Origin: a virus
Direction: 5' to 3' (one strand)
IMG/VR virus record: IMGVR_UViG_3300018423_000038
Coordinates: 1 to 31,475 of that record
Length of the DNA stretch: 31,475 nucleotides
In this document: positions 3,648 through 20,958 of the stretch, in pieces
Layout: each line of letters opens with the position of its first letter
Numbering within the stretch: position 1 is the stretch's first letter
Notes under the pieces: model-generated
What the model saw: only the letters and a program-made list of their open reading frames with translations
Databases searched by the model: none
What the model was told of the DNA's origin: nothing
Translations under genes and position numbers: made by a program

Positions 3648-6600
3648 TTAGACTGAGCTACGCACATTAAATGTGAACTGAATGTAGAGAAGTGGGAAGA
3701 TCGGCTTGTAGTAAACCTCAACCAAGAGCCCTGTAGGGTCTTCGGGGTCGGGGACTACTGAAAGATTCGTATAAGAATCAACGATCTGCTCCTTCACTAA
3801 GTCCTTGAACATCATGTTCACGCGACCCTCAATCTGACCCACAACAGTAGGCAAGTACTTCTGCCCGATGTATGTGTTCAAGAGGTTGCGAGCGCGGAGA
3901 TGCACCTCGTCTGCAATCTGAACAACAGTAGGGGTCTTAGAAAGAACGGAGCTCATATCCGTAGTCAATCCGTGACGGATATTCAGAGTCGCACCCTGTT
4001 GCTGAAGAATTGTAACACCACGATTTGCGGTGCGGTTCGCATCAACAGCGTCGAGAGTCCTCAAAAGACCATTGAAGCCCACGATAACAGAACGAGTCCA
4101 AGGCGTAGCAGCATCAATCGTACTCTTAGTCGTAGCACAGGCAACGGCAACAGCCATGTATCGTCCATCCACAATGAAGTTCTCTGTCACGCCTTGAGTG
4201 CTTGTGACTGAAATGCTCAAGATGTCGGGATACACGAGGCGAACACGGCTATTCTTAACACCCTGTGCGAGCGCAGACGCTTGCTCAGGTGTTGTACCTG
4301 CTGAACACCCTACAATTGCAGTACGCTCAGAACGATAGCGCAAGCTAGACTGCACATCACAATGGAGTGAAATGTCGCTCAAGAGCGTAGAAGAAGCAGG
4401 GAGTAAAGGAATGATGACAGAAGGAGAGAGCCCATTTCTGATCTCACCCTCTACATCAACAAGCGCCTGTCCCATCTGCTCGATAGAGGGCTCAGTCTGC
4501 CCTGCATCAAGAGGAATCTGCTTGAGAGCGATAGAACTCGCGCCATTAAGGAACGCGAGGTAAGCACCCAAGCTGAGAGGGTTCTGAGGAGAGATTTCGC
4601 CATACGCTGAAATCACATCAGAGAGACGAGTAAAGACACCTGTATTATACGTTGCCTTTCTACGAGTAAGGTCTAGGAAGTACTCTTGCCCATTATCGGG
4701 CTCTGGTCCTCCCTTAGCATACGTCTCAACGAGAGCGGTGTCCCCAATGAATGTTCCAACTGTGTTTGACACAATAATCTGAACACCAGGCACAACATTA
4801 ACAGGAATGTTCGCATTCGTAGTGACCCTATTTCCAACCTTAAAGCTAAGAGTAGCATTTACTCCCGTAGGGTAAGGCTGAGAACCTGCTCTAGGAAGAA
4901 GCGTGAAGCTAAAGCCTGTCACGTCATCGACATAAGTCTGTCCAATAACGCCATCTTGCCCGTCACCATTATTCAGAGTTGAAGTGTTAGCAGAGCCCGA
5001 TCCAAGGGGGTTCGTTGAAGTGACAAAGAATCCTTGATAAGCAACCTCTCCGACAGCTCCACTCGCTGTCGTGATGCCAAGACCCGAACCAACTGTAGTG
5101 ATAGAGCTACCCCCTGTGAAATTAATCACCGAGGAGCTACCTGCCGTCAAAGACTCGAACGAGACATAAGAAAAGCCCGTTTCATCGGTAGTCGTGTAGG
5201 CAATTCCGTCTGCGACAAAGCCCGTTACCGCAGCAGAGTCGCTGATAATGTACGCGACATTCGATGCGTAATCGCCTGCGTTCATCAGCGCAGAAGATAG
5301 AGCAACCGCGCTGACAAGACGTGGCGCTCTCACCGAGCCCGCTGAAAGATTAAAGAGATCATTTGCAGACCCCTCAAGGACTGAAATGTAGTCTAGCTCA
5401 GTAGCACCGCCGATGATGCGTAGGTTTGCACCCTCAATCTGCACCGAAAGACCAGCCGCCACGAGTTGAGCTGAGACAGAGCCCCCTGCGCTGAACAGGT
5501 CTGTGAGCAAGCCTGTATCTGAAGCGGTGAACTCTACGGAAATAAGAGTCCCCGACACGTCAAGGTTCAAGACGTTATTTGCAGGGTAGTTGGGGTCAGT
5601 CCCATCGTAGAAGATCACAGCAGGGCTTGAGGTGACAGTCGATTGCTCCGCCCAACCTGCACGAAGCAAGAGGCTCGGAGCCTCAACAATCGCTTTACGA
5701 GGAGCAAGTACAGTCTGAGCAGAAAGACCCGACTCTGAAAGGATAGAGCCACCAACAATTTCAACACCAAGCTCAACAGGTGGGAAATAATCATTTCCGA
5801 TGACAGCCCTGTTTCTAAGAACAATGCGATCCTTGTGAGGCTCCGCGAGATTCCCATTTCCAAGAATGTCTGTGGAAGCAACTCTTGCGACAGGGACAAT
5901 ACCGAACTTAGTCTGAGTACCGTCTGAGATGCCTGTGTCGATGCCTGCAATCCGCGCAAAGTCATCTGTAGGGTCAGCTTGGCTAATGAACTCAAGGTAG
6001 CCATAAGAATCCCCATTAGCGAGGTCGGTAAGGCTAAAGACCAAGTGACCTGAGAAGTTTGACACCTCTATAGCAATATCCGCAAGAGCGGCATCTCCTT
6101 GACCAAGAACAACGATAGCAGCGTCAATCTTAGTTTGAATCTGATCGACAAGTAGCTCTAAAGAGGCATAAGCCCCGTCTGCAATTGTGATGTCAATCTG
6201 AGCGTCCTTGACACTACTTCTATAGCGAATAGAAAGGAGATCGGACTCTCCCGCGACAATGCTTAGAGCACCCATTGGGGTCATGGCTGTGTAGCTCGCA
6301 GCCACAGCTTGAGACGCTGTATTGATCGCAGATACAATGTCCGATGCGGTGGCATTGACAAGAGCACCTGTCGCCACGCTAATGTCCTTGCCATCAATCT
6401 TAAAGAACAAGTCTCCATCAATGTTGCCAAGGTGTGCGTTATCTGACTCAGGCGTATAAGGGAGAGGCTCGCTCACAACACGAGTAAAGAAGCCCTCGTT
6501 TGTGTTTCCTGCGGGCGCGTCAAACAAGACCGATTTAGCCTTATTGACTCCATTATCCACGTCAAGAGTAAGAGACGCAGAAGTGGTGTCTGTGATCGAG

Positions 6601-8462
6601 TAAGGCGCGGCATTAGGAAGCGTAAAGACCGCAGGAGTAGGCTCGAAATCAGAAAGGGTGACAGTCACGCTCTCGTCTACAGGAGTTCCTACAGAAAGAT
6701 GGGCATCTGAAAGGATCTCTGTCCCCGATGGGAAAGCAAGCTCCGTCAGAGCAAGGTCAGAGCCCTTACCCTCAAATGTCACAGCTTTAAGAGGAAGCCC
6801 TCCATTTGAAATGGAGTATGTTCCTTGATTAGAAGCACCAACGCTTTCCACAGTAAGGGTGTAACCCCCACCTGCACTCTCATACTCGTCTTGGATATTA
6901 TTATAATATCCTGTAGCGAAAACCTTGTGTCCGAAAGGAACTGAGCGGCTAAGAGTAATTGTAGAGTCTGTAGGATTAACTCTCGTGACGACTACGGGGT
7001 CGCGCTCAAGAGCGTCTGAAATAGACACCCCTGTACGGACAGTAATAAGGTCGGTGCGAGAAGAGGGAGTCGCTGTCCCTGTTCCGTCCATTGGCTGAAA
7101 TGGAAGTCTAAAGACGTTAGGGAGCGTTCTCTGAGGGATCGTAGTGGTATCTGTCACATTTGAGCACTCAGCCATGAAGATGCGCTCATCTTTGAGTAGT
7201 GCTGTGACTTGAGTACCACCGAAGTTGATCTCCCCGTTCTGAATAGAGCCATCGGAGACAGAGGCGAATGTCCCCCAATAAATCTTATCGTCCTTGAGAA
7301 CCCAACTAGAGCCCTCAAAGTACAGACCTGAAGCCCCGCCACCTTCGGGCGTGATCCCTACGCGCTCAATCGACGTGACATCCCTTGAAGGAATGTAGTC
7401 GAAGAAGTCACGGAAAGAGTTGAAGGAATAAGAAATGCTGACTTCTTGACCAACCTTGGGGGCGGAGCTCAGGGTGATTGCACCTGTGGCTCCATCTACC
7501 GAAATAGGGGTGACTGCAACACCGTCAACGAGAACAGTCACATCAGAAGGATTGGTAGTCACCGCGCCTGCATTCGAGCCATCCACGATAGGGCTATAGC
7601 TTGTGTAGAACACAGCATTTCTAGCGCTACCTGTCTGACCTTGAGTGATCCCTAAAGCTTGGTTTGAGCTACCCGCTCCGACAAGAATCGAACCTTGAGC
7701 TGAGAGCTTAAGGTTTAGAGTCCCTAAGTTATTAGTATAGGCAGAAGCCGAGAGGGTCTGAGAAGTAGCCGCACCTGAGGCATTGATGCGAGAGACAACA
7801 GAGGCAAGGTGATCCTCTCTTGAAATACCATCACCCTTAATAGGAAGGGTGATGACAGAGGCGACACCATCTACAGTTAGAATCAGAGTGTTGCTCTGCC
7901 CTGTAATCTCAAAGTCTCCTGTGCCTGCAAAAAGCTCGGTGGCTGTTGGGGACACTTGAGCAGAAGCATCTTCATTAGAAACAAAGGTGTCTGTTCTGTT
8001 GAAGAAATAAGAAATACGGACATCATCCCCCTCTTTTGGAGCCTGAGAGAGATTGATGAGCCCTTCCTCTCCGTCAATGGAGAGGACAACAATCTGCTGA
8101 CCGTTTACAGTAGCAGTCACAGAGGAAGGGGAAATAGCAGTAGTACCTGTCCCATCTCCTGTAACGAGAGGCCATTGACGCGCTCTCACTTGGCGATCTA
8201 CACCATTGTAGCCCCCTAAGACATAGCTACCATTAGGTAGCTGACTTAGGACGATGCGCCCTTCAGTATCTTCCTCAACAATTTGCTGATCAATCGTAGA
8301 GGAAGAACCACGAACTAAGCTAATCGCCTTGACTGAGAAGGTCTCTGCGCCTGCTCCAATAAGGAGAGGGATTCGACCTGTAGGGTTATTCTGAGTTGTA
8401 GGGGAGTCAAAGACTGACTCTGTGTAGACTCCAGGGGGAGCGTAACCGCCTCTGATTGCCAT
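3648..8462 (-). CDS. Giant contractile tail sheath protein (1604 aa)
   Basis: The N-terminus (GYAPPGVYTE at 6-15) is the usual start of tail sheath subunits. The C-terminal third carries the conserved core: VGCSAGTTPEQA at 1384-1395, ATPWTRSVIVGFNGLLRTLDAVDANRTANRGV (begins 1452), ADEVHLRARNLLNTYIGQKY (about 1517-1536), and the final beta-rich segment ending YKPIFPLLYIQFTFNV. The subunits polymerise around the tail tube and contract at infection. Known sheaths are usually about 400-700 residues, so some 900 residues are extra. The insert is built of beta-rich repeats: two matching modules at about 113-154 and 306-348 (each with a DG..G.I.LS.AP..G pattern ending SY.FN), a weaker third at 488-522, and segments at about 191-275, 684-760 and 966-1039 that resemble the flagellar hook IN-type repeat. 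AGGAGA precedes the ATG. Sheath identity is secure. Confidence 0.93.
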   Translation of the reverse strand: MAIRGGYAPPGVYTESVFDSPTTQNNPTGRIPLLIGAGAETFSVKAISLVRGSSSTIDQQIVEEDTEGRIVLSQLPNGSYVLGGYNGVDRQVRARQWPLVTGDGTGTTAISPSSVTATVNGQQIVVLSIDGEEGLINLSQAPKEGDDVRISYFFNRTDTFVSNEDASAQVSPTATELFAGTGDFEITGQSNTLILTVDGVASVITLPIKGDGISREDHLASVVSRINASGAATSQTLSASAYTNNLGTLNLKLSAQGSILVGAGSSNQALGITQGQTGSARNAVFYTSYSPIVDGSNAGAVTTNPSDVTVLVDGVAVTPISVDGATGAITLSSAPKVGQEVSISYSFNSFRDFFDYIPSRDVTSIERVGITPEGGGASGLYFEGSSWVLKDDKIYWGTFASVSDGSIQNGEINFGGTQVTALLKDERIFMAECSNVTDTTTIPQRTLPNVFRLPFQPMDGTGTATPSSRTDLITVRTGVSISDALERDPVVVTRVNPTDSTITLSRSVPFGHKVFATGYYNNIQDEYESAGGGYTLTVESVGASNQGTYSISNGGLPLKAVTFEGKGSDLALTELAFPSGTEILSDAHLSVGTPVDESVTVTLSDFEPTPAVFTLPNAAPYSITDTTSASLTLDVDNGVNKAKSVLFDAPAGNTNEGFFTRVVSEPLPYTPESDNAHLGNIDGDLFFKIDGKDISVATGALVNATASDIVSAINTASQAVAASYTAMTPMGALSIVAGESDLLSIRYRSSVKDAQIDITIADGAYASLELLVDQIQTKIDAAIVVLGQGDAALADIAIEVSNFSGHLVFSLTDLANGDSYGYLEFISQADPTDDFARIAGIDTGISDGTQTKFGIVPVARVASTDILGNGNLAEPHKDRIVLRNRAVIGNDYFPPVELGVEIVGGSILSESGLSAQTVLAPRKAIVEAPSLLLRAGWAEQSTVTSSPAVIFYDGTDPNYPANNVLNLDVSGTLISVEFTASDTGLLTDLFSAGGSVSAQLVAAGLSVQIEGANLRIIGGATELDYISVLEGSANDLFNLSAGSVRAPRLVSAVALSSALMNAGDYASNVAYIISDSAAVTGFVADGIAYTTTDETGFSYVSFESLTAGSSSVINFTGGSSITTVGSGLGITTASGAVGEVAYQGFFVTSTNPLGSGSANTSTLNNGDGQDGVIGQTYVDDVTGFSFTLLPRAGSQPYPTGVNATLSFKVGNRVTTNANIPVNVVPGVQIIVSNTVGTFIGDTALVETYAKGGPEPDNGQEYFLDLTRRKATYNTGVFTRLSDVISAYGEISPQNPLSLGAYLAFLNGASSIALKQIPLDAGQTEPSIEQMGQALVDVEGEIRNGLSPSVIIPLLPASSTLLSDISLHCDVQSSLRYRSERTAIVGCSAGTTPEQASALAQGVKNSRVRLVYPDILSISVTSTQGVTENFIVDGRYMAVAVACATTKSTIDAATPWTRSVIVGFNGLLRTLDAVDANRTANRGVTILQQQGATLNIRHGLTTDMSSVLSKTPTVVQIADEVHLRARNLLNTYIGQKYLPTVVGQIEGRVNMMFKDLVKEQIVDSYTNLSVVPDPEDPTGLLVEVYYKPIFPLLYIQFTFNVRSSV

Positions 8463-10238: not shown

Positions 10239-10266
10239 TTGACAAAGTACGGCGAACTCTTATATG
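10239..10266 (+). promoter_or_regulatory. Sigma-70-type promoter for the GHKL ATPase gene
   Basis: A perfect -35 hexamer TTGACA (10239-10244), a 16-base spacer and a -10-like TATATG (10261-10266). Transcription would begin near 10273, so the ATG inside the -10 at 10264 cannot be the start used, which supports the downstream start at 10336. Confidence 0.65.
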
Positions 10267-10335
10267 AGCCCCTCAGAGAGCGTCAAAAACCTCTCTACAA
10301 CCCCGACACACCCAACAATCGAGGAGATGCTTCCT

Positions 10336-12489
10336 ATGGGTATGAAACACATCCAAGACGTGAACACTCAGAACTCCATCGACAGGAAATTCCGAGACAT
10401 CCAAGATCCACAGCAGTATCTGAGAGAGCTTTATCAGAACTGCCTTGAGGCGGGGGCTACGCAGATTATGATCGAGCCCGAACCTGAGGCGTGGGAGAAC
10501 TTCAAAGTCCAACGTATGATGGTGCTTGACAACGGAACAGGGATGGACGAAGCGACACTCTTAAAGGTGTGTGACCTTAATGCGAGCACAAAGACGACAG
10601 GGGGGGAGCACGACAATTTCGGAGTGGGGGCTAAGATTTCATGCCTGCCCTTTAACAAGTTCGGCATGGTCATCGTCACATGGACGAAAGAGAACCCCGA
10701 AGGAGTTATGATCCGCTTGAAGGCAGATGATCATGGATATGGGTCAGAGGATGGAGAAGTCACAGGATATGGGGTGGACTCCGAAGACAATATCTTTGAA
10801 GATCAGATTCAAGGGTTCAACACCTTCAAGCCGCAGTACCTTGCTGATCTTGGGGTTGATTGGTCTAAGACTTTAGAGAAAGCAAAGGACTTGTTGACCG
10901 CTCAAGGCGCTCATTCGGAGAGTGGGACTCTTGTAGTCCTATGCGGAAATCACTTTTTCGACAATACGATGTTGAAGGACTCTATGGGGTCATATGCGAG
11001 TCGGGATAGTCGGTGCAACTACCTCAATCAGAGATATTTCAAGCTCCCTCAGAATGTCCAAACAAAGGTGGGGAGCATCCCCATTAAGGGTATCGACAAG
11101 AAGCCGAACCTCTTTGATGACTTCAAAGAGCTAGAAGAAAATATTTCATCTGCCGTAGACTCCAACTTCCCCATAGAGCTTTACTCTTACTTTTATGGAC
11201 AAGGGACTGAGCCCCTAAAAGAAGCTTCTACAACTGTGGGTCTTTGGCTAGAGGACTATGAGAGCAAGTATATGCCGAAAGAGATTCAAGAAGGAGGCTC
11301 TCTCCATAGACGTGGGAACACAAAAGGCTTCTTTGAGACGATCAAGGGGACTCCCTCTTATTGCTCCGCTTCGGGCAAGGTCGAGACAGGTGACGGAACG
11401 AACATCTATTGGTTCATCGTGGACTCGAAAGAACCTACAAAGAGAAGCATCCCGCTCTTTAAAGAGGACATGGTAGGCGGAATCCAAGTAGTCTATAAGG
11501 ACGAGCTTTACCTAAAGAAGAGCTCAAAAGACGGCAAGGGCTATTACCATACGGTTAGCTCATGGGGCATTCCGCACATTTCAGAGTCTCAAGACAACCG
11601 TCTGATCGACCGCATTAAGATTTTTGTAGAGTTCCCCCTGTACAAGAAGGGTGTGCGTGGGGGGGTCATTCCCGATGAGACACGCACTAACATTCATTGG
11701 ATGGACAAGAGCGGTGTCTCAAAGACACTCCCATACCCTTCAGATTATTTCGCAGAGAACTTACCCCAAGATATTTCAGACCTCATCGAGTCTTATCAAA
11801 AGGCTCAGGAGAGCTCATGTACTGACCTTGAAGAGATTCGGAAGAAGATTTCCTCTGTGCTTGAGAGTCTGAACAAGGTGTCGAAGTCCTCCAAAGACGT
11901 ACAAGATGTGGGCGGGGGAGACAAAGGCGGTAATGGGGGGGTGGGAAATAACAATGGGGGCGGCTCTACTCGCAACGGGTCTCGTCGCAACCCTTCTAGC
12001 TCTCGACAGACAGGGCTCGCGCTCCCTAAGCGCAACAAGCCCGCTGAGAGCGCAGTTGTGACCCCTGTCATTTATTGGAAGAAGCACCGCAAGGGCGCGG
12101 ATGATGCCGAGTTCCTAGACTTTGAGGACTCTGAGGGAAATTTGTTCGCCACAAGTCAGTTTACGATGAACTCATCGGGGGCATTTATCCATCTCAATGA
12201 AGACTTCCCCGTGTTCCAAAAGCTCCTCGAATCATATCGAAATAAGATCCGTAAAGAAGGACACGACCTGCTCTTAGAGACCGCTAAGAATATCTTTAAT
12301 GAGAAGATCGGCTCTGCCCTTTACGGCATCATGGCGCTACGCTCTAGCAAGATCATTTCTAAAGACAAGCTTGTGGGACCAGAGTCTCTGACTCAGCACT
12401 TCATTTCAATCTATGCAGACATCCCAAAGATCGAGAAGGAAATGGGTCAAGGGAAGCTCAAGGCTTATGTGATCAAGAGCAAGTCTTAA
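10336..12489 (+). CDS. GHKL-fold (Hsp90/histidine kinase/MutL-type) ATPase, possibly rIIA-like
   Basis: 717 residues from ATG at 10336, nine bases after GAGGAG; the longer frame begins inside the promoter. The GHKL (Bergerat) nucleotide-binding motifs are in order: N box ELYQNCLEAGA (E31, N35), G1 box LDNGTGM (64-70), and a G2-like lid GGEHDNFGVGAKIS (89-102). A middle domain follows, then a Gly/Asn/Ser-rich linker at about 524-560, and a C-terminal domain of about 150 residues with no known match. The phage T4 rIIA protein is of nearly the same length and also carries a GHKL ATPase domain, but I see no rIIA-specific sequence, so this is only a candidate. It stands alone on the plus strand behind its own promoter between two leftward blocks, so it is probably separately expressed. 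Confidence 0.78.
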   Translation: MGMKHIQDVNTQNSIDRKFRDIQDPQQYLRELYQNCLEAGATQIMIEPEPEAWENFKVQRMMVLDNGTGMDEATLLKVCDLNASTKTTGGEHDNFGVGAKISCLPFNKFGMVIVTWTKENPEGVMIRLKADDHGYGSEDGEVTGYGVDSEDNIFEDQIQGFNTFKPQYLADLGVDWSKTLEKAKDLLTAQGAHSESGTLVVLCGNHFFDNTMLKDSMGSYASRDSRCNYLNQRYFKLPQNVQTKVGSIPIKGIDKKPNLFDDFKELEENISSAVDSNFPIELYSYFYGQGTEPLKEASTTVGLWLEDYESKYMPKEIQEGGSLHRRGNTKGFFETIKGTPSYCSASGKVETGDGTNIYWFIVDSKEPTKRSIPLFKEDMVGGIQVVYKDELYLKKSSKDGKGYYHTVSSWGIPHISESQDNRLIDRIKIFVEFPLYKKGVRGGVIPDETRTNIHWMDKSGVSKTLPYPSDYFAENLPQDISDLIESYQKAQESSCTDLEEIRKKISSVLESLNKVSKSSKDVQDVGGGDKGGNGGVGNNNGGGSTRNGSRRNPSSSRQTGLALPKRNKPAESAVVTPVIYWKKHRKGADDAEFLDFEDSEGNLFATSQFTMNSSGAFIHLNEDFPVFQKLLESYRNKIRKEGHDLLLETAKNIFNEKIGSALYGIMALRSSKIISKDKLVGPESLTQHFISIYADIPKIEKEMGQGKLKAYVIKSKS

Positions 12490-12709: not shown

Positions 12710-13720
12710 TTATGAGAGCAGAGTTGAGTAAATCAGCTCTCTTACTACTTTATACGGGTCAGCGTTCGCATTGGGTCGTCTGTCCTCGAAATAGCCACTC
12801 CCTTCATTGGCTGTTTGAAGGGGAATACGGACGCTCGCTGTCCTATCAGAGACTCCCCATTTAAACTCGTCATAGCGACAAGTCTCATGGTGTCCTGTGA
12901 GCCTTATTTCATACCCATCGCCATAAGCATTAAGATGCCTCTCGATATTCTGAGGTTGACCCATCACACTAAGAATGGACTCAATCACCCGAAGCCCCTC
13001 ATTTGCGCGGGTCTTTTTAGTTGAGAAGTTAGTGTGCATACCCGCCCCATTCCAATCGCCCGCCACAGGCTTGGGGTCAAGCGTAGCTGAAATGCCAAAG
13101 TCCTCTCCAATACGATAGAGAAGCCAACGCGCAAGCCACAGCGAGTCTGAAGCCTCAAGAACATCACCGAAAACTTGGAACTCCCATTGACCAGGCATGA
13201 CCTCTGCGTTGATGCCCGTGAGTGGCAAGCCTGCTTTCAGACAAAGCTCTAAGTGCTTCTCGACAAGAGCCCGACCGCTCACCTCATCTGCACCCACCCC
13301 ACAATAGTAAGGTCCTTGTGCGGGGGGGAAGCGCCTTTCTGAAGGAAATCCTAAAGGTTTAGACCCGTCAAAAAGGGTGTACTCTTGCTCGAACCCTGCC
13401 CATGCCTCAAGACCATCAGTCTGATCGAGCAGATCTCTTAAAACAGCCCTTGTGTTACTCTCGACAGGAGTCACCCCATCTGCATGAAATACTTCACAAA
13501 GAACAAGGATATTATCCATACCCCTAATAGGATCGGGGACAATACGCACAGGCTTTAAAACGCAGTCAGAGCTATGCCCCTCTGCTTGGTTCGTAGAAGA
13601 ACCATCGAAAGACCAAAAAGGACAATCCCCAAAAGTCGTCCCGTCAGGAAGAACTTTAGTCTTAGAACGAACACGCGCTGTGGGAGTCCCCCCATCAATC
13701 CAAATATATTCTGCAAGCAT
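12710..13720 (-). CDS. Glutamine synthetase, type II (GSII, eukaryote-like)
   Basis: Makes glutamine from glutamate, ammonia and ATP. At 336 residues it has GSII size, well below the 450-470 of the bacterial GSI form. Motifs in order: WSFDGSSTNQA (36-46) of the N-terminal beta-grasp domain, EQEYTL (111-116) and NAEVMPGQWEFQ (171-182) with the metal-binding glutamates, GDWNGAGMHTN (221-231), the glutamate-binding GHHET (276-280), SVRIP (296-300) and FEDRRPNANADPY (321-333). All the expected active-site residues are present, so the enzyme should be active. There is no adenylylation loop, as usual for GSII. GAGGTG precedes the ATG. It lies 65 bases after the GNAT gene on the same strand. A metabolic gene of this class in a phage is unusual and was presumably acquired from a cellular genome. 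Confidence 0.93.
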   Translation of the reverse strand: MLAEYIWIDGGTPTARVRSKTKVLPDGTTFGDCPFWSFDGSSTNQAEGHSSDCVLKPVRIVPDPIRGMDNILVLCEVFHADGVTPVESNTRAVLRDLLDQTDGLEAWAGFEQEYTLFDGSKPLGFPSERRFPPAQGPYYCGVGADEVSGRALVEKHLELCLKAGLPLTGINAEVMPGQWEFQVFGDVLEASDSLWLARWLLYRIGEDFGISATLDPKPVAGDWNGAGMHTNFSTKKTRANEGLRVIESILSVMGQPQNIERHLNAYGDGYEIRLTGHHETCRYDEFKWGVSDRTASVRIPLQTANEGSGYFEDRRPNANADPYKVVRELIYSTLLS

Positions 13721-13785: not shown

Positions 13786-15138
13786 TTAATAAGAAAAAGA
13801 GCCCCTTACCCACTCCAAGTAAATACGATTAAGTTCCTTGCTGTTACGGAGGTTTATTTCTACGGGGAAGATGGAGTAGAATATATGCTCATGCTCTCTT
13901 TTTCTAAGGGGGAGAGTAGGACTTACCTGTTCAAGAGTTGTGTACTTAATACAATAAAAAATATTAAGAGTGCCTATGATATAGGGGCTCTTTCCTGACA
14001 TAACAACAACAAACCGCCCCCCTAATTTTGGAAGAAATCTCTCTATTTTAGGGGGATCCCCCCAATTTATAGGGTCCATCGGGTTGTACTTTTTGTGCTG
14101 AGTGTTTATTTTTTCAAAGGTCTTTGCCCACTCGTAACCTGAAATATTGTAAGGTTTGACCTCAGCTTTTGAATAATTACTCTTAGAGAGAAGCAGGTCA
14201 GATACGGATTTCTCAATACGATCTTCAAAGTCTTGAAGGGAAATTGAACCAAGCAATTTCCTAAACTGATCTATGTCCGAGTACTGTGCGAACTTTTCTC
14301 GGAGCCCAAGCCCTTCTTGGTCATTTGTTGTAAACTCTATTAACCTGCTTGCTTTTTTACTTATCATCTGCTTGCCTTTTTCAGAGAAAGTAGGGGTGTG
14401 AACGGGCTTCTGCCCACTTTTAGCTTTACTCTCCTCACGCCTCTTCTTACGAGCCAACGTAGCCCTCTGTTCTTTCGTGAGATCGTGGGCTTTGTCTCTC
14501 GGCATACACTTGAGTGGGTTCTTTCCCCCGTCTGTAATGGATGCCCACTCTGCTTCACTAGATACGGCACATGGGCCAACAATGTCTCCTGCCTCATAAG
14601 TCTTAGACTCCCCGTTTTCTTTCTTTACGGTGTGTTTGATCGGAGTGATGGCTATCCAATCACCCCATGTGGCTCGATCATCAGGCTTACCGCCACCATG
14701 ACCTGCAAACCAAGTATCTAACCCACCATGTCCTGTGTTCTTGAGCTTAGGGTCATCTCGCTTGGCTGAGGTTCTCACTCTTTTAGGGTTGCGAAGCATG
14801 GTATCCCTAGTCCTGAAGTCTTTATTTCTGCCCTTATTGGGAACAAAGCCAAAACGCCTATAGAACCTTGTAAGCCTAGCGACAGAAGTAGCCCCAAAGT
14901 CTGTACTAGGAGAAAGAGTAAGCATGACCCCATGAGTATCTGCCCAAGAAATAATCTGAGACATGATCTCTGAGCCTAACCCCTGCTTACGCTCATCTTT
15001 AGAGATTGAAATAGTATTTATCCTCACGACAGGGGGAGAATATTCATCTCCCCCTGACAGGTACGAGAGCATTAAGATAAGCCCCTTATATTTCGCCTCT
15101 AAAGCGTCTTGTAAGTCCCTCACAGATTGATCGTTCAT
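13786..15138 (-). CDS. GNAT acetyltransferase fused to DUF5872-like domain
   Basis: 450 residues in three parts. Residues about 1-110 form a GNAT N-acetyltransferase domain: the strand VVRINTISIS, the acetyl-CoA binding loop RKQGLG (50-55), and the late motif LTRFYRRFGFVPN (89-101). Residues about 138-248 match the pattern of the viral DUF5872 domain: LDTWF, WGDWIAI, then GDIVGPC, PLKCMPR and a basic tail LARKKRREE. The last 200 residues are not recognised. The GNAT part could acetylate a protein or small molecule; the substrate is unknown. The start codon overlaps the stop of the 835-residue gene by one base (TGATG), so the two are probably coupled and may act together; that gene also has a segment often found with DUF5872-type domains. 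Confidence 0.75.
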   Translation of the reverse strand: MNDQSVRDLQDALEAKYKGLILMLSYLSGGDEYSPPVVRINTISISKDERKQGLGSEIMSQIISWADTHGVMLTLSPSTDFGATSVARLTRFYRRFGFVPNKGRNKDFRTRDTMLRNPKRVRTSAKRDDPKLKNTGHGGLDTWFAGHGGGKPDDRATWGDWIAITPIKHTVKKENGESKTYEAGDIVGPCAVSSEAEWASITDGGKNPLKCMPRDKAHDLTKEQRATLARKKRREESKAKSGQKPVHTPTFSEKGKQMISKKASRLIEFTTNDQEGLGLREKFAQYSDIDQFRKLLGSISLQDFEDRIEKSVSDLLLSKSNYSKAEVKPYNISGYEWAKTFEKINTQHKKYNPMDPINWGDPPKIERFLPKLGGRFVVVMSGKSPYIIGTLNIFYCIKYTTLEQVSPTLPLRKREHEHIFYSIFPVEINLRNSKELNRIYLEWVRGSFSY

Positions 15139-17645
15139 CAGAGGTTCTCCTTATTTACAGCTTCATAGAAAAGCCCGACAGCCTTCTTCCAATTTCGGGG
15201 CTTGTACCTTTTAAGAGATTGAAAGAACTGACTGAGGCGTATGAACCTCTGAACAGACTTATTGTCGGGGCGAGAACCAAAGTTATCCCTAAAGTCCATA
15301 ATCTCATCTAATAGCCTCGTATAGAACTCGATGTCATCAAGAGCGTGGAGAGAAATGACGCTAGGGTTAAAACCCTCTCTACGATACTGATCTCTTAAAG
15401 ATTTGAGTTGTTCTTCTTTCTCTTCAAGATCCCTAGAGTCGAAGATATTAGGCTGTCTATATTCTGAGTCATATTTCTTTCTAGGCAGACCTGTGTCCAT
15501 GTACTCTCTTACATAGGAACTAGGATTAATAAGATTTGCCTTGAGCGCGATCTCTTTCTGCATAAGGTGTACAAGCTCGTGCCTCACCAATTTCCGCACT
15601 CTTTTTAGGTCGTGAGAAGCCCAAAAGGGTTTAGCTAAATCAAAGTAAATCGTGATGACGTGGGCTTTGTCACCAAAAAGATAGCTACCATCTGCCCTCA
15701 GTCCTTGTTTCCATTCTACTTCCACATAAAGAGGGAGAGACAAAAAAGGGTGAGTTACACGCCATTTGTAGCCCCCCTTAAAGAGCTTAGGTCTGTGGGA
15801 GTTCTTCTTAAAAGCTTGCTCGTAATCTGCCTCAGAGGACTCCAATATGAGCCCCTTCATGTTGGAGCTCGCTTCGGCATGAATACGAAAGAAGATCTTA
15901 GAGACTTTCTTTACGCTATCTTTGTAAACCTCGAATAGTTCTAAGACTGAAAGAGGGTCATAGGAGCTGACTTCTTTCTGAGCCTCTTTAATGAGAGGGA
16001 GATGCCGAGCTTCTGCTTTTTTCTCAAGACGCTTCAGGAAATTCTTGGCGTTCATTATCAGAAGCTGAATATCTTCTAACTCTTCTTCTCCCCTCTTAAT
16101 CCCTTTGGGGAGATAAGAGAACCCGTCTGAAAAAGACTCAAGCAGCTCGACTTCTTCCTCAGTATAGGTACTAAGAGTACGCAAGAAGAATAAGTGCTCT
16201 GCCAAGCCCCCTTGAGCTATTTCTGTGACCTCATCGAGCAAGTCTTGAGGGGGCGTTATGAGCCCTGCTTCTTTCTCTGAAGCTGACCTCATGCCCATGT
16301 CAGCTCTCTCTAAGAGATGAGTGAGTGTAGCCCTCTCCATGTACTTCTTATTTCTAGGAGTGAGGAGGTGGCTGATCTCGTTCCACTTAGAACCTCTATG
16401 AGAAAGAGCCCCTCTGAAATGATCTCTAATAGCTTCTCTCGTGAGGGAGTGCTTTGCTACTAAGTACTCCTCAGCCTCAAGCGCCACTTGCTGAAGATGA
16501 GCCTTCACCTCTGAGGGGCTATTGATGTATTTCTTAAAAGATACCAAATCGTTAGGGTGTCCACCGCCACCCGATAGAGTATAGAGTATCCGATCATAAG
16601 CGTGAGTGACCTCATGGGAGAGGGTACTCAGAAATGACTTTTTGAAGTCCCCTTCAAAATCCGCATACTTCTTGGCGAGCGCGTTCAAGATTGCAGTAGA
16701 ATAATCTCGTATGTTGATTGTGATCGAGTTATCTGAACGATTAAACTCGCCCTTCACTAAATCGCTGTTCTTCTTAACTACTACATACAGGTCAACTTTT
16801 TGCCCTCCTATTTCAAGAGGGGGTAGCTCGAAGGCAGGCACAGGCTTGATGACCTTTGAGATCGTAGCCTTCCCTTGCTCTTGAGCCTTCTCAGCATAAG
16901 AAACGACCTTATCCCAAGCGAGCTTAGTTCTAGCAAGCAGGGGTGCTCTATCTATACGGATAGGGCTCGCGCCTGTCTTGGAGTAGCAGTTCTTGTAGGG
17001 TCTGCAAGAGGCTTTCTCTGAGAAGCCCATTTCATCACAGGGTTTCTCTTCGCAGTAGTCTTTATCCCACTTGCGAGGCATCTTAAACTCACTACCCTCT
17101 TTTTTCCATTTCCCCCCAAGTCGTTTATATTGAGCGAGAGCCCAGCCATTGGCGTAAGCCGAGGGGAATATAGTAAAACCCTTGCCATCATTCACAGGGT
17201 TGACGGACTCCTTGCCCCTAGTCACAGGCTTAGAAGATTCGCCCTTGGCGAGAGCCTGTATTTCAGCCCACAGCTTTTCATTTACGGGGACATTTTTCCG
17301 TTTCGCGCCCCCTGCCTTTCTTAAAGCAGAGGAGTTGTTGGTGAATCCACTATTGTAGGGGATTACCCTTGCAGACCCGCTTCCGCTGTCTTGAACGTAG
17401 CCCAAGTCTTGGCTCTCAGCAGGAGTGCGCCCATAAGAGTCAGCTCGGTCAAGGTTTCTATATTTCAAGTTAGGCGAGTCGGGGCTTGGGCGACCTATAT
17501 TTCTAGCGGAATCCCCATTCGGAAGTGAGCTATGCGAGCTTTCTCCGTCGGGGTTATCAGAGCGCCCTACGGGAGTTCCTTGAGTGTAGCTTGAAAGCTG
17601 ATCAGGGGGAGACACCTCTCGATAAAAGTCGGCTATTTTTTTCAT
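15138..17645 (-). CDS. Large protein with two HExxH zincin metalloprotease-like motifs (835 aa)
   Basis: Residues 1-110 are low-complexity, rich in Ser, Pro, Asp and Gly. Residues about 120-220 hold a FPSAYANGWALAQYKRLGG motif and five cysteines, a segment of the kind that accompanies DUF5872-like domains in viral proteins. Two zincin signatures follow: LSHEVTHAYD with H344, E345, H348, and VRHELVHLMQ with H689, E690, H693. After the first comes SPSEVKAHLQQ (376-386), a plausible third-ligand glutamate; candidates after the second lie near DDIEFYTRLLDE (770-781). The strands before each motif (DNSITINIRDYS; AHVITIYFDLA) look alike, hinting at an internal duplication. It may be a protease acting on virion or host proteins. 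It overlaps the upstream membrane protein gene by 4 bases (ATGA) and the GNAT gene by 1. No signal peptide is visible. Confidence 0.75.
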   Translation of the reverse strand: MKKIADFYREVSPPDQLSSYTQGTPVGRSDNPDGESSHSSLPNGDSARNIGRPSPDSPNLKYRNLDRADSYGRTPAESQDLGYVQDSGSGSARVIPYNSGFTNNSSALRKAGGAKRKNVPVNEKLWAEIQALAKGESSKPVTRGKESVNPVNDGKGFTIFPSAYANGWALAQYKRLGGKWKKEGSEFKMPRKWDKDYCEEKPCDEMGFSEKASCRPYKNCYSKTGASPIRIDRAPLLARTKLAWDKVVSYAEKAQEQGKATISKVIKPVPAFELPPLEIGGQKVDLYVVVKKNSDLVKGEFNRSDNSITINIRDYSTAILNALAKKYADFEGDFKKSFLSTLSHEVTHAYDRILYTLSGGGGHPNDLVSFKKYINSPSEVKAHLQQVALEAEEYLVAKHSLTREAIRDHFRGALSHRGSKWNEISHLLTPRNKKYMERATLTHLLERADMGMRSASEKEAGLITPPQDLLDEVTEIAQGGLAEHLFFLRTLSTYTEEEVELLESFSDGFSYLPKGIKRGEEELEDIQLLIMNAKNFLKRLEKKAEARHLPLIKEAQKEVSSYDPLSVLELFEVYKDSVKKVSKIFFRIHAEASSNMKGLILESSEADYEQAFKKNSHRPKLFKGGYKWRVTHPFLSLPLYVEVEWKQGLRADGSYLFGDKAHVITIYFDLAKPFWASHDLKRVRKLVRHELVHLMQKEIALKANLINPSSYVREYMDTGLPRKKYDSEYRQPNIFDSRDLEEKEEQLKSLRDQYRREGFNPSVISLHALDDIEFYTRLLDEIMDFRDNFGSRPDNKSVQRFIRLSQFFQSLKRYKPRNWKKAVGLFYEAVNKENL

Positions 17646-18163
17646 TTCTTAGCCTTCTTAGAATTGTCCTGCTTGGGACTCTCTTGAGGCTTCTGATCTT
17701 CTTTTGAGGGATTTTCCTCGGACACCTTTGGAGTCCACTCATCTACAGCTTTTGGGAGAACGATGTCTTCCTCAGTACGTCTCGTTATTGGATTTCTTTC
17801 AAAGACAGAGAGCTTCTCAATTACCGCGCTCTGCAAGTCAAATATCTGCTCCCTCAAGAGTTGCATCTGAATCTGAGCGTCTCTCAAGCGACCAATTAGG
17901 GCTGCTCTGTCTGCATTCGCAGAAGATAGTTTATCTTTCAAATCCTCGACTTCTGAGGGGTCTCGCCCCGAAGCGATAGAGAGCATACTTGAAATAGATC
18001 CTGTCAACATACCAATGATGCCAATCAGGATGTCTCTATTCTTCTCTACTATTTCATGGGTCGAGAGGAAGTAGATGAGAACACAAATTAAGAACATAAA
18101 AACAACAGAGGCATACCAACCTCTGCGAGCTTTGTCTGTCTGAGAAAACTGCTTAGAACTCAT
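17642..18163 (-). CDS. Two-pass membrane protein with cytoplasmic coiled coil (173 aa)
   Basis: ATG at 18163 is part of a TAATG overlap with the cyclase stop and has AAAGGA before it; the longer frame from 18202 lies inside the cyclase gene. Two membrane segments are visible, about 16-34 (WYASVVFMFLICVLIYFL) and 44-63 (ILIGIIGMLTGSISSMLSIA), followed by a heptad-like helix at about 70-120 and a Lys/Glu/Pro-rich tail ending KKAKK. The arrangement resembles phage holin-like small membrane proteins but no holin family is recognised. No cyclic-nucleotide binding domain is visible. It is sandwiched between the cyclase and the zincin gene with overlaps on both sides, so it may be the membrane partner of one of them, or a holin. 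Confidence 0.7.
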   Translation of the reverse strand: MSSKQFSQTDKARRGWYASVVFMFLICVLIYFLSTHEIVEKNRDILIGIIGMLTGSISSMLSIASGRDPSEVEDLKDKLSSANADRAALIGRLRDAQIQMQLLREQIFDLQSAVIEKLSVFERNPITRRTEEDIVLPKAVDEWTPKVSEENPSKEDQKPQESPKQDNSKKAKK

Positions 18164-19026
18164 TATGTATGTCCTTTCAAAAAGGATATCACCGCATCCC
18201 AAAATTCTGAGATAACTTGGTTCACTTCATCTATCCCCGATAAGTATTGAAGACCTAGCAAGTCCCTACCTAAGTCGGTAGAGATGAACCTATAAAACAC
18301 AAACAAAAGAACCAAGAAAACGTAGAGAGATAGCTTTACGACGATAGCGTCTATTTTCTCTTGGGTGGTCAGTTTAGAGAAGGGGATTTTAATATTTCGA
18401 GGACCCTTTACTTTACGAGCTTTTTCTGTGTCTTTTGGGGGTTGCAAACTCTCAATAGTTTCGCCAACGGCGTAAATTTTCTGAGGCTCCTTCACGCCCT
18501 TAAATTTATAAGACCCTACAAAGACATATCTCGCAGACTTTGGCGTGTCATAATTAGTCCTACCTCGAACTGCACCCATCGCCTGATCTGTCAGCAAAAC
18601 TTGACTAGGACCACAGAGACTCATTGTTCTCGCGGCTATATTCTTAGCGAGCCCCTCTAGCTCTATTCTCTTAGCGTTTGCTGCGACCCAAACATCACTC
18701 TGATGAACCTCAATAATTGTGTCCCAATGGATTCCTATCCTACACCCTAGACCTGTTTTCTTTGGTATTGATCTCTGATAGTGAAGCGCGAAATTAATCG
18801 CTTCAATTGGGGTTTCAAAAGAGCAGAGAAAGCCATCAGATCGGTCTATCTCTCTGCCGTTAAATTTGTATAACATCGACCTTGTAAGTCGATCATGCAC
18901 TTGGAAATGTAGAGCCGCTCTTGCTGCGCCGTACTTCTGAACAAAAGAGGTGCTACCAATTAAATCAAGGAGAACTATTGCTAGTTTCCGCTCCTCCATT
19001 CTTATATTATTTCGGGGGAGTGCCAT
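18163..19026 (-). CDS. Class III (CHD) nucleotide cyclase with C-terminal membrane segment
   Basis: Start ATG at 19026, with AGGGGA before it; a GTG six codons upstream is less likely. The N-terminal 190 residues are a class III adenylate/guanylate cyclase catalytic domain: LAIVLLDLIGSTSF with metal-binding D21, EIDRSDGFLCSF with the second metal aspartate D64, a GIHWDT strand, and EGLAKNIAARTMSL with N129 and R133 in the positions that stabilise the transition state. The REIDRSDGFL version matches a bacterial subfamily of cyclases with DGFL instead of GDG. The usual lysine that selects adenine is not at its expected place, so the product (cAMP, cGMP or a pyrimidine cyclic nucleotide) cannot be read. 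A membrane segment follows at about 225-247. The stop overlaps the next gene's start. Nucleotide cyclase in a phage genome is unusual. Confidence 0.85.
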   Translation of the reverse strand: MALPRNNIRMEERKLAIVLLDLIGSTSFVQKYGAARAALHFQVHDRLTRSMLYKFNGREIDRSDGFLCSFETPIEAINFALHYQRSIPKKTGLGCRIGIHWDTIIEVHQSDVWVAANAKRIELEGLAKNIAARTMSLCGPSQVLLTDQAMGAVRGRTNYDTPKSARYVFVGSYKFKGVKEPQKIYAVGETIESLQPPKDTEKARKVKGPRNIKIPFSKLTTQEKIDAIVVKLSLYVFLVLLFVFYRFISTDLGRDLLGLQYLSGIDEVNQVISEFWDAVISFLKGHT

Positions 19027-19080
19027 ATTAGAGTCCCCTCTCACTCCATTATTGTTATGAACTGAGGGGGAATAAAAGAG

Positions 19081-19281
19081 CTAACGACCCCCGTACTTAC
19101 AATCCGTCAGCTTGCCTTCTAACACCTCGACTACTCGAAATAGCTTTGAACACTCATTCTCCTCAACCTTTGCACACTTCTTAAGATGCACTAAGGACTC
19201 TAAATAAGCCTTCTCGATGTCTCGGCAAGGCTTATTTAGAGTGGGGGATGAAATGAAAAGAAGTAGGATCAATTCTAACAT
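19081..19281 (-). CDS. Small secreted or membrane-anchored cysteine-rich protein (66 aa)
   Basis: Begins with a hydrophobic stretch MLELILLLFISSP, which could be a signal peptide or anchor, followed by a charged, helical domain with four cysteines (PCRD, KKCAK, NECSK, TDCKY) spaced so that two disulphides could form after export. No lipobox is present. GAGGAG lies six bases before the ATG, within a stem-loop. It lies 54 bases upstream of the cyclase gene in the same direction. Its size, export signal and position next to a holin-like gene would fit a spanin-like lysis accessory, but no such family is recognised. Confidence 0.55.
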   Translation of the reverse strand: MLELILLLFISSPTLNKPCRDIEKAYLESLVHLKKCAKVEENECSKLFRVVEVLEGKLTDCKYGGR

Positions 19282-19314: not shown

Positions 19315-20958
19315 TCAGAAAGAGGGCGCTAAAAGAGCTTTCCTCACTTCAGAATAATGATATGAGGGTCTATCTTCTTGAATGAGAGATAAGAGAGAGC
19401 TTCGAGCTTTTGGATTTTCATACGCAGTACGAACGAGAGCTTTCTTTGAAATGAACTCCTTGGCAGTCGCCACCTCTTTCTTGGCAGGAATATAAAACTC
19501 CTCAATTACTTCGTCCATCAACTTTTTGCGATCCTCCTCCCCCTTCTCCTGAAGATGGTCATACATAGCCATATAGTCTATTTCACCATCTTCTGTCGCA
19601 AACTGATTTAAGAACTCTTGGTCGTTGAACATCTCCTCCATCTTTTTGGTGCTGTCCTTTGTCAGCTCCTGAAGATCAGAAATGAACTTCTTTGTCTCCT
19701 CAGGGTCAACAGAAGCGAAACGTCTCTTAGAGAAGCCTGCACCCCCGCCCTTCGGAGCGCCTCTGAGTACGTCTCCTGCCATAGAACAAGCCATGCCGAC
19801 TGCATAGAACCCAAGACCTGCGGTAGCGGTGGAGACTCCTGCTCTCATTTTCGACATGAATCCACGACCTTGATTGGCAGAGAACGTCTTTTCTACGTTC
19901 TTGTCAGACTCAGCTTTAGCCTCGTCAAACGCCTTTGAATCATAAGAAACACCTGCAATCTGAGAAGCCATCAAGCGGGCTGATGTCTGCTGCTTTTGCA
20001 GTTTCCCTTTTGCTGACCTTTGCGCCTTCTTGAGCTCTTTCTGAAATTCTTCTTTAGTGCTACCTGAAATCTTTTCCATTTCCTTGTCGTAGATGCTCTT
20101 AAGCTTACCCCCCACACCATCGGCATCCATGTCAGCACCCGAAATATCTAGCGCGACTTCTCCGATGGCTTTTAAGATTGTACCACCAATCTTGCCCGCC
20201 ACCTTAGCGCCAACCTTGGCGGCTTTTAGCATTGGCTTGGCAACAGTCCACGTTGCCTTACCCGCCCCAACGGTTTTATCCTTCACCTTCTTAGAGGTGT
20301 CCTTCACCTTCTTAGCCGCCCTTGCAACTGCCCTGCCCATGTCTTTCAGACTAGACCACTTATCCCCCATATAAGCTTTGACTGTAGATGCAGAAGCGAG
20401 ACCCTTTGAAGCAGACCCTTTAGCAACCCCTAAAGCAGACACCGCGCTCTCTGAAATGTACCTAGCGAAATCCCTGCTACTAGAGAGATATTTAGCGATG
20501 TCTTTTTTCATATCAGAGTCTGCATTGCTGTCTGTAAGAATATCAGCGGCATAAGAAGCGCTAATGTCCTTTTGACTCTTCTTCTTCCCTTTGACGGGGA
20601 CTCTGCGCTTCTCCTTCGACATCATACTTAAAAAGGACTCAGCGATCTGCCCATGAGCAGGGTTTGAAGGGTCAAACCCTAAAGAAAGCACCGTTTTTTC
20701 GACATACTTCTGAAGCTCTGCCTCAGACATATCTTCGGGGGGCGCGTCTTTAAGTGCTACTTTGATCAGACCCCTTCTTGAGGCGATCTTAGGGAGAACA
20801 TGAGATCGCAGCGAGGGCTCAACATAAGCAAGTTTTATTATGCGCTTTTCTAGGTCTTTTTCAGAAGAAGCGACCCTTGTAGTAAGAACGGGCAGTAGCA
20901 AACCCCTGATGTCCTCATTCTCATATGCAACTTTAATCAGCTCACTCTTTAAAGACAT
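19315..20958 (-). CDS. Unrecognised protein with repeated LI+LAYE motifs and hydrophobic segments (547 aa)
   Basis: Not a known family. Three copies of a 20-residue motif frame the protein: ELIKVAYENEDIRGLLLPVL at about 6-25, RIIKLAYVEPSLRSHVLPKI at about 39-58, and KALVRTAYENPKARSSLLSL near the C-terminus. The same motif opens the 562-residue protein at 24440-26128. The middle is Ala/Lys/Gly-rich and amphipathic (about 180-270), including VGAKVAGKIGGTILKAIGEVAL, and a second hydrophobic stretch, TATAGLGFYAVGMACSMAGD, lies near 380-400; these could associate with membranes. The C-terminal third is acidic and helical. GGGGG lies just before the ATG. A virion-packaged protein delivered with the DNA is one possible reading. 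Confidence 0.6.
   Translation of the reverse strand: MSLKSELIKVAYENEDIRGLLLPVLTTRVASSEKDLEKRIIKLAYVEPSLRSHVLPKIASRRGLIKVALKDAPPEDMSEAELQKYVEKTVLSLGFDPSNPAHGQIAESFLSMMSKEKRRVPVKGKKKSQKDISASYAADILTDSNADSDMKKDIAKYLSSSRDFARYISESAVSALGVAKGSASKGLASASTVKAYMGDKWSSLKDMGRAVARAAKKVKDTSKKVKDKTVGAGKATWTVAKPMLKAAKVGAKVAGKIGGTILKAIGEVALDISGADMDADGVGGKLKSIYDKEMEKISGSTKEEFQKELKKAQRSAKGKLQKQQTSARLMASQIAGVSYDSKAFDEAKAESDKNVEKTFSANQGRGFMSKMRAGVSTATAGLGFYAVGMACSMAGDVLRGAPKGGGAGFSKRRFASVDPEETKKFISDLQELTKDSTKKMEEMFNDQEFLNQFATEDGEIDYMAMYDHLQEKGEEDRKKLMDEVIEEFYIPAKKEVATAKEFISKKALVRTAYENPKARSSLLSLIQEDRPSYHYSEVRKALLAPSF

Follow-up and report, generated by a model that had tools for sequence, protein, structure and literature searches.

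Circuits built on cyclic mononucleotides are known from host regulation and from host defense against phage. Among the systems with which the present locus bears comparison are Pycsar, composed of a PycC cyclase and a PycTM or PycTIR effector (PMC11224242), and the SLATT proteins of Burroughs and Aravind, two-TM effectors predicted to form pores in response to nucleotide signals (PMC7159879). The closest solved structures to the cyclase described here are those of the mycobacterial class III enzymes Rv1900c (LipJ) and Ma1120, and the nearest cellular cyclase domain is that of TIGR04510, the 'putative peptide modification system cyclase' (for example in Rubrivivax/Rhizobacter, L087-L094). A literature search on TIGR04510 and phage-encoded cyclases gave no relevant paper, and no phage-owned cyclic mononucleotide circuit with a dedicated membrane partner was found in the open-access papers searched.

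The window, meaning the whole stretch of DNA analyzed, is a virus record of 31,475 bases. It comes from a phage with a contractile tail, of which it is a fragment, since a tail sheath (phrog_2839) and a major head protein (phrog_2522) are both encoded in it, and the tailed phage named in the initial annotation is thus borne out. That annotation dealt with a class III nucleotide cyclase and missed its obligate two-TM partner gene; what the phage carries is a two-gene module, not a lone enzyme. Its features are as follows:

18163..19026, minus strand: class III nucleotidyl cyclase, putatively active, 287 aa; cyclase domain at about residues 12-190, then a basic linker and a C-terminal membrane segment
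18964..18966, minus strand: D21, first metal aspartate, aligned to Rv1900c; present in 160/160 copies with the position
18835..18846, minus strand: D61-R62-S63-D64, shortened turn; D61 160/160, D64 160/160, R62 142/160
18661..18663, minus strand: E122, at the base-binding aspartate position; Glu in the 143 copies of type I, Asn or Ser in the 17 of type II
18628..18642, minus strand: N129..R133, transition-state pair; N 158/161, R 161/161
18283..18354, minus strand: predicted transmembrane helix of the cyclase, residues ~225-248; 19-aa hydropathy 2.16; helix 221-248 in the model
17642..18163, minus strand: obligate partner, 173 aa; two TM helices followed by a long cytosolic helix, then a variable tail
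17972..18037, minus strand: partner TM2, NRD.L.GI.G..TGSISSM.AIASGRDP, near-invariant in family alignments
17801..17959, minus strand: predicted cytosolic helix of the partner, coiled-coil-like, E.E.LKDKL..ANADREALI.RLRDAQIQ

The cyclase frame starts with an ATG at 19026, with an in-frame GTG at 19044. Against PF00211, the profile that the initial annotation had proposed, it reaches only 12.6 bits, under the curated cut-off of 21.9, and its identification rested instead on other profiles and on the fold; as these do identify a cyclase, the shortfall is a failure of sensitivity on the part of PF00211. The cyclase domain of NCBIfam TIGR04510 matches residues 16-205 with 145 bits (E=2.4e-42), and phmmer finds the Rv1900c cyclase (1ybt) at 5.7e-11, or 1.8e-21 when the family profile is used. 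An AF2 model built from 44 sequences has a pLDDT of 95.1 and a pTM of 0.85, and its first Foldseek match is again 1ybt, chain B (1ybt_B; E=1.2e-12, target TM-score 0.88, rmsd 1.8). The cyclase assignment of the initial annotation therefore stands, well beyond what chance would give, as does the membrane segment that it placed after the catalytic residues. The catalytic domain itself would be cytosolic, since the K/R-rich flank of the transmembrane helix sits on the catalytic side. It is under strong purifying selection: comparison with a near relative (L001, 97% identical) gives a dN/dS of 0.049, with 51 synonymous and 10 amino-acid codon differences, eight of the latter lying in the membrane and tail part.

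Residue counts are based on 163 aligned phage copies (72 distinct at 95% identity, a few with gaps), drawn from the IMG/VR cyclase scan, from which the best 80 of 193 relatives were taken, with further copies added via the partner scan. Pairwise identity among them falls to about 24%. The metal aspartates and the transition-state pair lie where the initial annotation had put them, D21, D64 and R133 being invariant and N129 nearly so; K119, E124 and G125 are likewise found in 160/160 copies with the position. It had also remarked that the base-selecting lysine was not where expected, and the alignment agrees. The turn before D64, the second metal aspartate, lacks one residue relative to that of Rv1900c and Ma1120, D61-R62 replaces their N-T or K-S, and D61 stands where the adenine lysine would be expected. 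Aligned to 1ybt and Ma1120, the phage enzymes lack the adenine-specifying Lys/Asp pair, having D61 and E122 (N122 in type II) in its place; the base positions are assigned by this sequence alignment.

Two types of base pocket are apparent. Type I, with R58, E59, R62, F66 and E122, comprises 140 copies, while about 16, L131 among them, are of type II, with Q, L or W, A or N, H, and N at the same five positions, and one or two are intermediate. From the alignment and from established class III knowledge, we take position 122 to be that of the base-binding Asp of other class III enzymes, and the two types therefore appear to differ in how they recognize the base. Three copies have A at position 129 (L152, L155 and L150). 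The last, encoded at L150:3127-3948, is the most divergent of the phage cyclases, with an LEKAEA pocket and an ordinary partner alongside, and offers a natural test of the need for N129. A separate pick-up of this copy from cells was considered and rejected: it branches deepest, yet its closest BLAST matches are phage copies.

The partner gene begins within the cyclase stop, the two sharing the overlap TAATG. In the partner model (pLDDT 76) helices span residues 4-36, 44-65 and 70-122, and hydropathy agrees on two TM segments. Both ends of the protein are probably cytosolic, as K/R residues precede TM1 (positive-inside rule). Its conservation runs from TM2 into the start of the following helix (NRD.L.GI.G..TGSISSM.AIASGRDP.E), and TM2 is more strongly conserved than the cyclase's own TM. 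Comparison with Pfam and PADLOC revealed no CNBD, no known nucleotide-binding domain and no match to a Pycsar effector, and a structure search with the partner model returned nothing.

The association of the two genes was examined at 165 loci (numbered with the prefix L), which represent 148 distinct contigs, 17 having been sampled twice. Both genes occur on all 144 of the sampled contigs that do not end at the pair; in the four single-gene cases (L002, L039, L068, L161) the contig ends exactly there. The pairing is thus obligate. Mostly the two genes overlap or abut, and since they lie more than 1 kb apart in six loci (L016, L131, L133, L147, L188, L190) and in reversed order in L008, operon inertia alone does not explain the link. 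No third gene is universal at these loci, the next commonest family having 89 members among the 165.

The pair also persists across very different phage neighborhoods. When loci are grouped by at least three other shared families they fall into sets of 96, 31, 16, 7, 4 and 3, plus eight singletons, though a looser grouping by a single shared family joins them all. In the window the pair lies in the head and tail region; in L055 it lies between the large terminase and a portal of phrog_113, with a major capsid protein of phrog_1005, and in L022 near a portal of another family, phrog_12. It is found among helicase genes in L041 and L016 and primase genes in L086. The initial annotation had suggested that the cyclase might signal to a membrane partner at lysis: the partner is real and encoded by the adjoining gene, but because the pair also lies among replication genes it has no special tie to the lysis stage.

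Several other genes of the window deserve mention in their own right. The sheath protein (3648-8462, minus strand) is of unusual length, 1604 aa, with the phrog_2839 match at its C-terminal end and a DUF2460 stretch near residues 305-348. On the opposite strand, 10264-12489 encodes a 741-aa protein with an HATPase_c_3 domain (PF13589) that has cluster members at ten of the cassette loci. A GlnII-like glutamine synthetase of 336 aa is encoded at 12710-13720 (minus strand); its match to NCBIfam NF041605 (E=9.7e-144) scores 478.6 bits, where the cut-off is 500. Immediately downstream of the cassette, also on the minus strand, are an 835-aa protein in which one stretch is weakly SprT-like (15138-17645) and a larger protein with a GNAT acetyltransferase domain (13786-15138; PF13508, 3e-6). 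Just upstream of the cyclase is a 66-aa frame (19081-19281, minus strand) with a Cys and a signal-like N-terminus, recognized by neither Pfam nor PHROGs, and then a 547-aa protein (19315-20958, minus strand) with a similar motif at each end, IKVAYENEDIRGLLLPVL and VRTAYENPKARSSLLSLI. Promoter, terminator and Rfam scans gave nothing exceeding chance.

Reciprocal scans of IMG/VR found 193 relatives starting from the cyclase and 297 from the partner, so that the module, always of two genes, is widespread. The carrier contigs, mostly fragments, range up to 376 kb. By tblastn, neither the cyclase (types I and II) nor the partner has a copy in INPHARED (50,697 phage records), and this absence from the phage isolate records searched marks the module as serving a function that laboratory phages lack. 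A family-pattern scan of 84,980 prokaryote genomes likewise found no phage-type copy, only relatives at 23-39% identity; among the plasmid matches listed there were only cellular cyclases, 22-29% identical, and the partner profile, run on 399 Pseudomonadota genomes, had a single marginal match, which lies within a frame of 535 aa. Tyrosine-integrase-like matches are weak and occur in 3 of 20 phage records. Given these few matches and the lack of a phage-type copy in prokaryotes, most of the carriers look virulent or appear to grow on unsampled hosts.

Of particular interest is the relation between the cyclase and partner trees. On the cyclase tree type II forms one clade (SH-aLRT 100) and a single change of pocket type suffices, whereas four are needed on the partner tree, where L016 (type I) falls in the same clade as L188 and L190 (type II) with 100% support; the trees are quick ones, the partner alignment has 161 columns and some branches are weak. 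Cyclases have thus been exchanged beside a constant partner. Between the types the partners are 65% identical, with one differing column, and the cyclases 39%. That one partner occurs naturally with either type of pocket is a ready-made experiment: should the two kinds of enzyme yield different nucleotides and still act through that partner, it could not be a base-specific receptor.

The obligate pairing suggests that these viruses run a signaling circuit of their own at the membrane of the infected cell. The locus would be a two-gene membrane signaling module carried by phages. Because the two metal aspartates and the N/R pair are all present in a single chain, its membrane-anchored cyclase would be expected to form a head-to-tail homodimer containing two active sites. 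The enzyme would convert an NTP to a 3',5'-cyclic NMP, the base being determined by something other than the usual adenine residues. The two-TM partner, its gene translationally overlapping, would sit beside the cyclase in the inner membrane, where cyclase activity, via its product or by contact, may shift the state of an oligomer of the partner's two-TM helices. That change could in turn alter the infected cell's membrane, for instance excluding rival phages or holding a productive state; for a virulent phage, inter-phage exclusion is the most likely putative purpose. To the partner as output of the cyclase we give somewhat less than an even chance. It has no known nucleotide-binding domain, its resemblance to SLATT is at noise level, and a pore lethal to the cell would be to a virulent phage's disadvantage. 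Nor does it track the pocket type, which would be odd for the receptor of a base-specific signal and fits a regulator or an anchor equally well; hence the doubt whether it is output or input.

As input, the partner would be a membrane sensor or regulatory subunit, and the product would reprogram the cell through host receptors, for example CRP-like ones. Both proteins being membrane-bound, and the partner being constant beside different pocket types, would suit such an arrangement, and any canonical receptor would need to come from the host, CNBDs (PF00027) being absent from 20 carrier phage records of up to 376 kb. The product would, however, need to function in many hosts, cAMP acting on CRP is made less likely by a pocket that lacks the adenine lysine, and a whole near-invariant TM helix (TGSISSM) exceeds what an anchor needs; we regard a regulatory partner as possible but doubtful. 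The same two-TM topology is holin-like, and several copies lie in late-gene modules, as would befit a lysis-timing or lysis-delay device in which cyclic nucleotide accumulates until the partner permeabilizes the membrane. Such a device is improbable, though: it would be one device kept across backbones of unlike gene order, other copies lie among replication genes, and no lytic-enzyme family was seen among the scanned neighbors.

A somewhat more improbable purpose is counter-defense, the phage's cyclic NMP jamming or mistriggering nucleotide-based host defenses while the partner merely localizes the cyclase. The swapping of pocket types beside one partner could reflect an arms race in signal chemistry, but the strict conservation of partner TM2 and the cytosolic helix would be left unexplained, and we know of no phage mechanism that acts on host defense in this way. 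Very improbable is a catalytically dead cyclase fold serving as a scaffold. The shortened turn, the missing adenine lysine and the A at position 129 of three copies might point to one, and against it stand the invariance of both metal aspartates and R133 in some 160 copies despite their divergence, and the selection on the catalytic domain. To return to the partner as output, the picture in its entirety would be of an obligate cyclase and two-TM-effector module shared by many uncultured phages, a phage-owned counterpart of Pycsar in which a non-canonical cyclic nucleotide acts on the membrane and cyclases of different base specificity are swapped beside the same effector; as a whole this is conceivable, though unlikely.

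The cellular TIGR04510 proteins share with the phage cyclase the GREIDR[S/T]DGF-type turn, D61, E122, K119, K128 and R133. They differ in having P or A in the N129 position and in being about 1000 aa long, with AAA and TPR domains in one that was scanned, whereas the phage enzyme is a single chain of 250-310 aa with a TM, 26-33% identical to them. Membership of TIGR04510 was rejected, since the match covers positions 7-204 only, against a cut-off of 400 bits over 814, and the four TIGR04510-type genomes searched hold no clear partner homologue. Rv1900c and Ma1120 align in fold and in the metal and transition-state positions. Their turn, however, is one residue longer, with N or K at the base position, and Rv1900c is fused to a hydrolase; we know of no membrane partner gene for either. 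The other viral guanylate-cyclase folds (pandoraviruses and 'uncultured Caudovirales phage' in BFVD) are 10-18% identical, of other architectures and outside this family.

The partner has the same order of parts as the SLATT proteins, two TM helices followed by a cytosolic helix. PF18142 (SLATT_fungal) matches 20 of 24 partners at E<=0.1 (best 2.1e-5), and the five matches listed score 16-20 bits, under the cut-off of 26.5. Reversed-sequence controls match other TM families with comparable E-values. For a small set of bacterial SLATT proteins, hhalign gives probabilities of 0.6-3.7 (0.1-1.1 when reversed), on a scale where, with shallow sets, SLATT_1 against SLATT_2 itself reaches only 14. SLATT membership is not established on this evidence: the weak Pfam matches are consistent, but neither the reversed sequences nor hhalign lend them support.

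The initial annotation had also raised a link to Pycsar, which by descent is not supported. No PADLOC PycC model matches the window protein; 10 of 44 family members do match (best E=0.0033), and the family profile reaches AnPycC (8jsz) only at E=0.049, against 1.8e-21 for Rv1900c. The module has no significant PycTM match either. With PADLOC and PDB matches this weak, membership by descent was rejected. Pycsar is moreover a host defense whereas this module is carried by phages, its cyclase has a TM of its own, and its partner has neither a CNBD nor a PADLOC effector match. In both, however, a cyclase of class III fold is encoded with a membrane protein as a two-gene unit, and the base pocket lacks the adenine lysine. 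The phage module is not a member of Pycsar, but by analogy it would work as Pycsar does, through a cyclase and a membrane protein.
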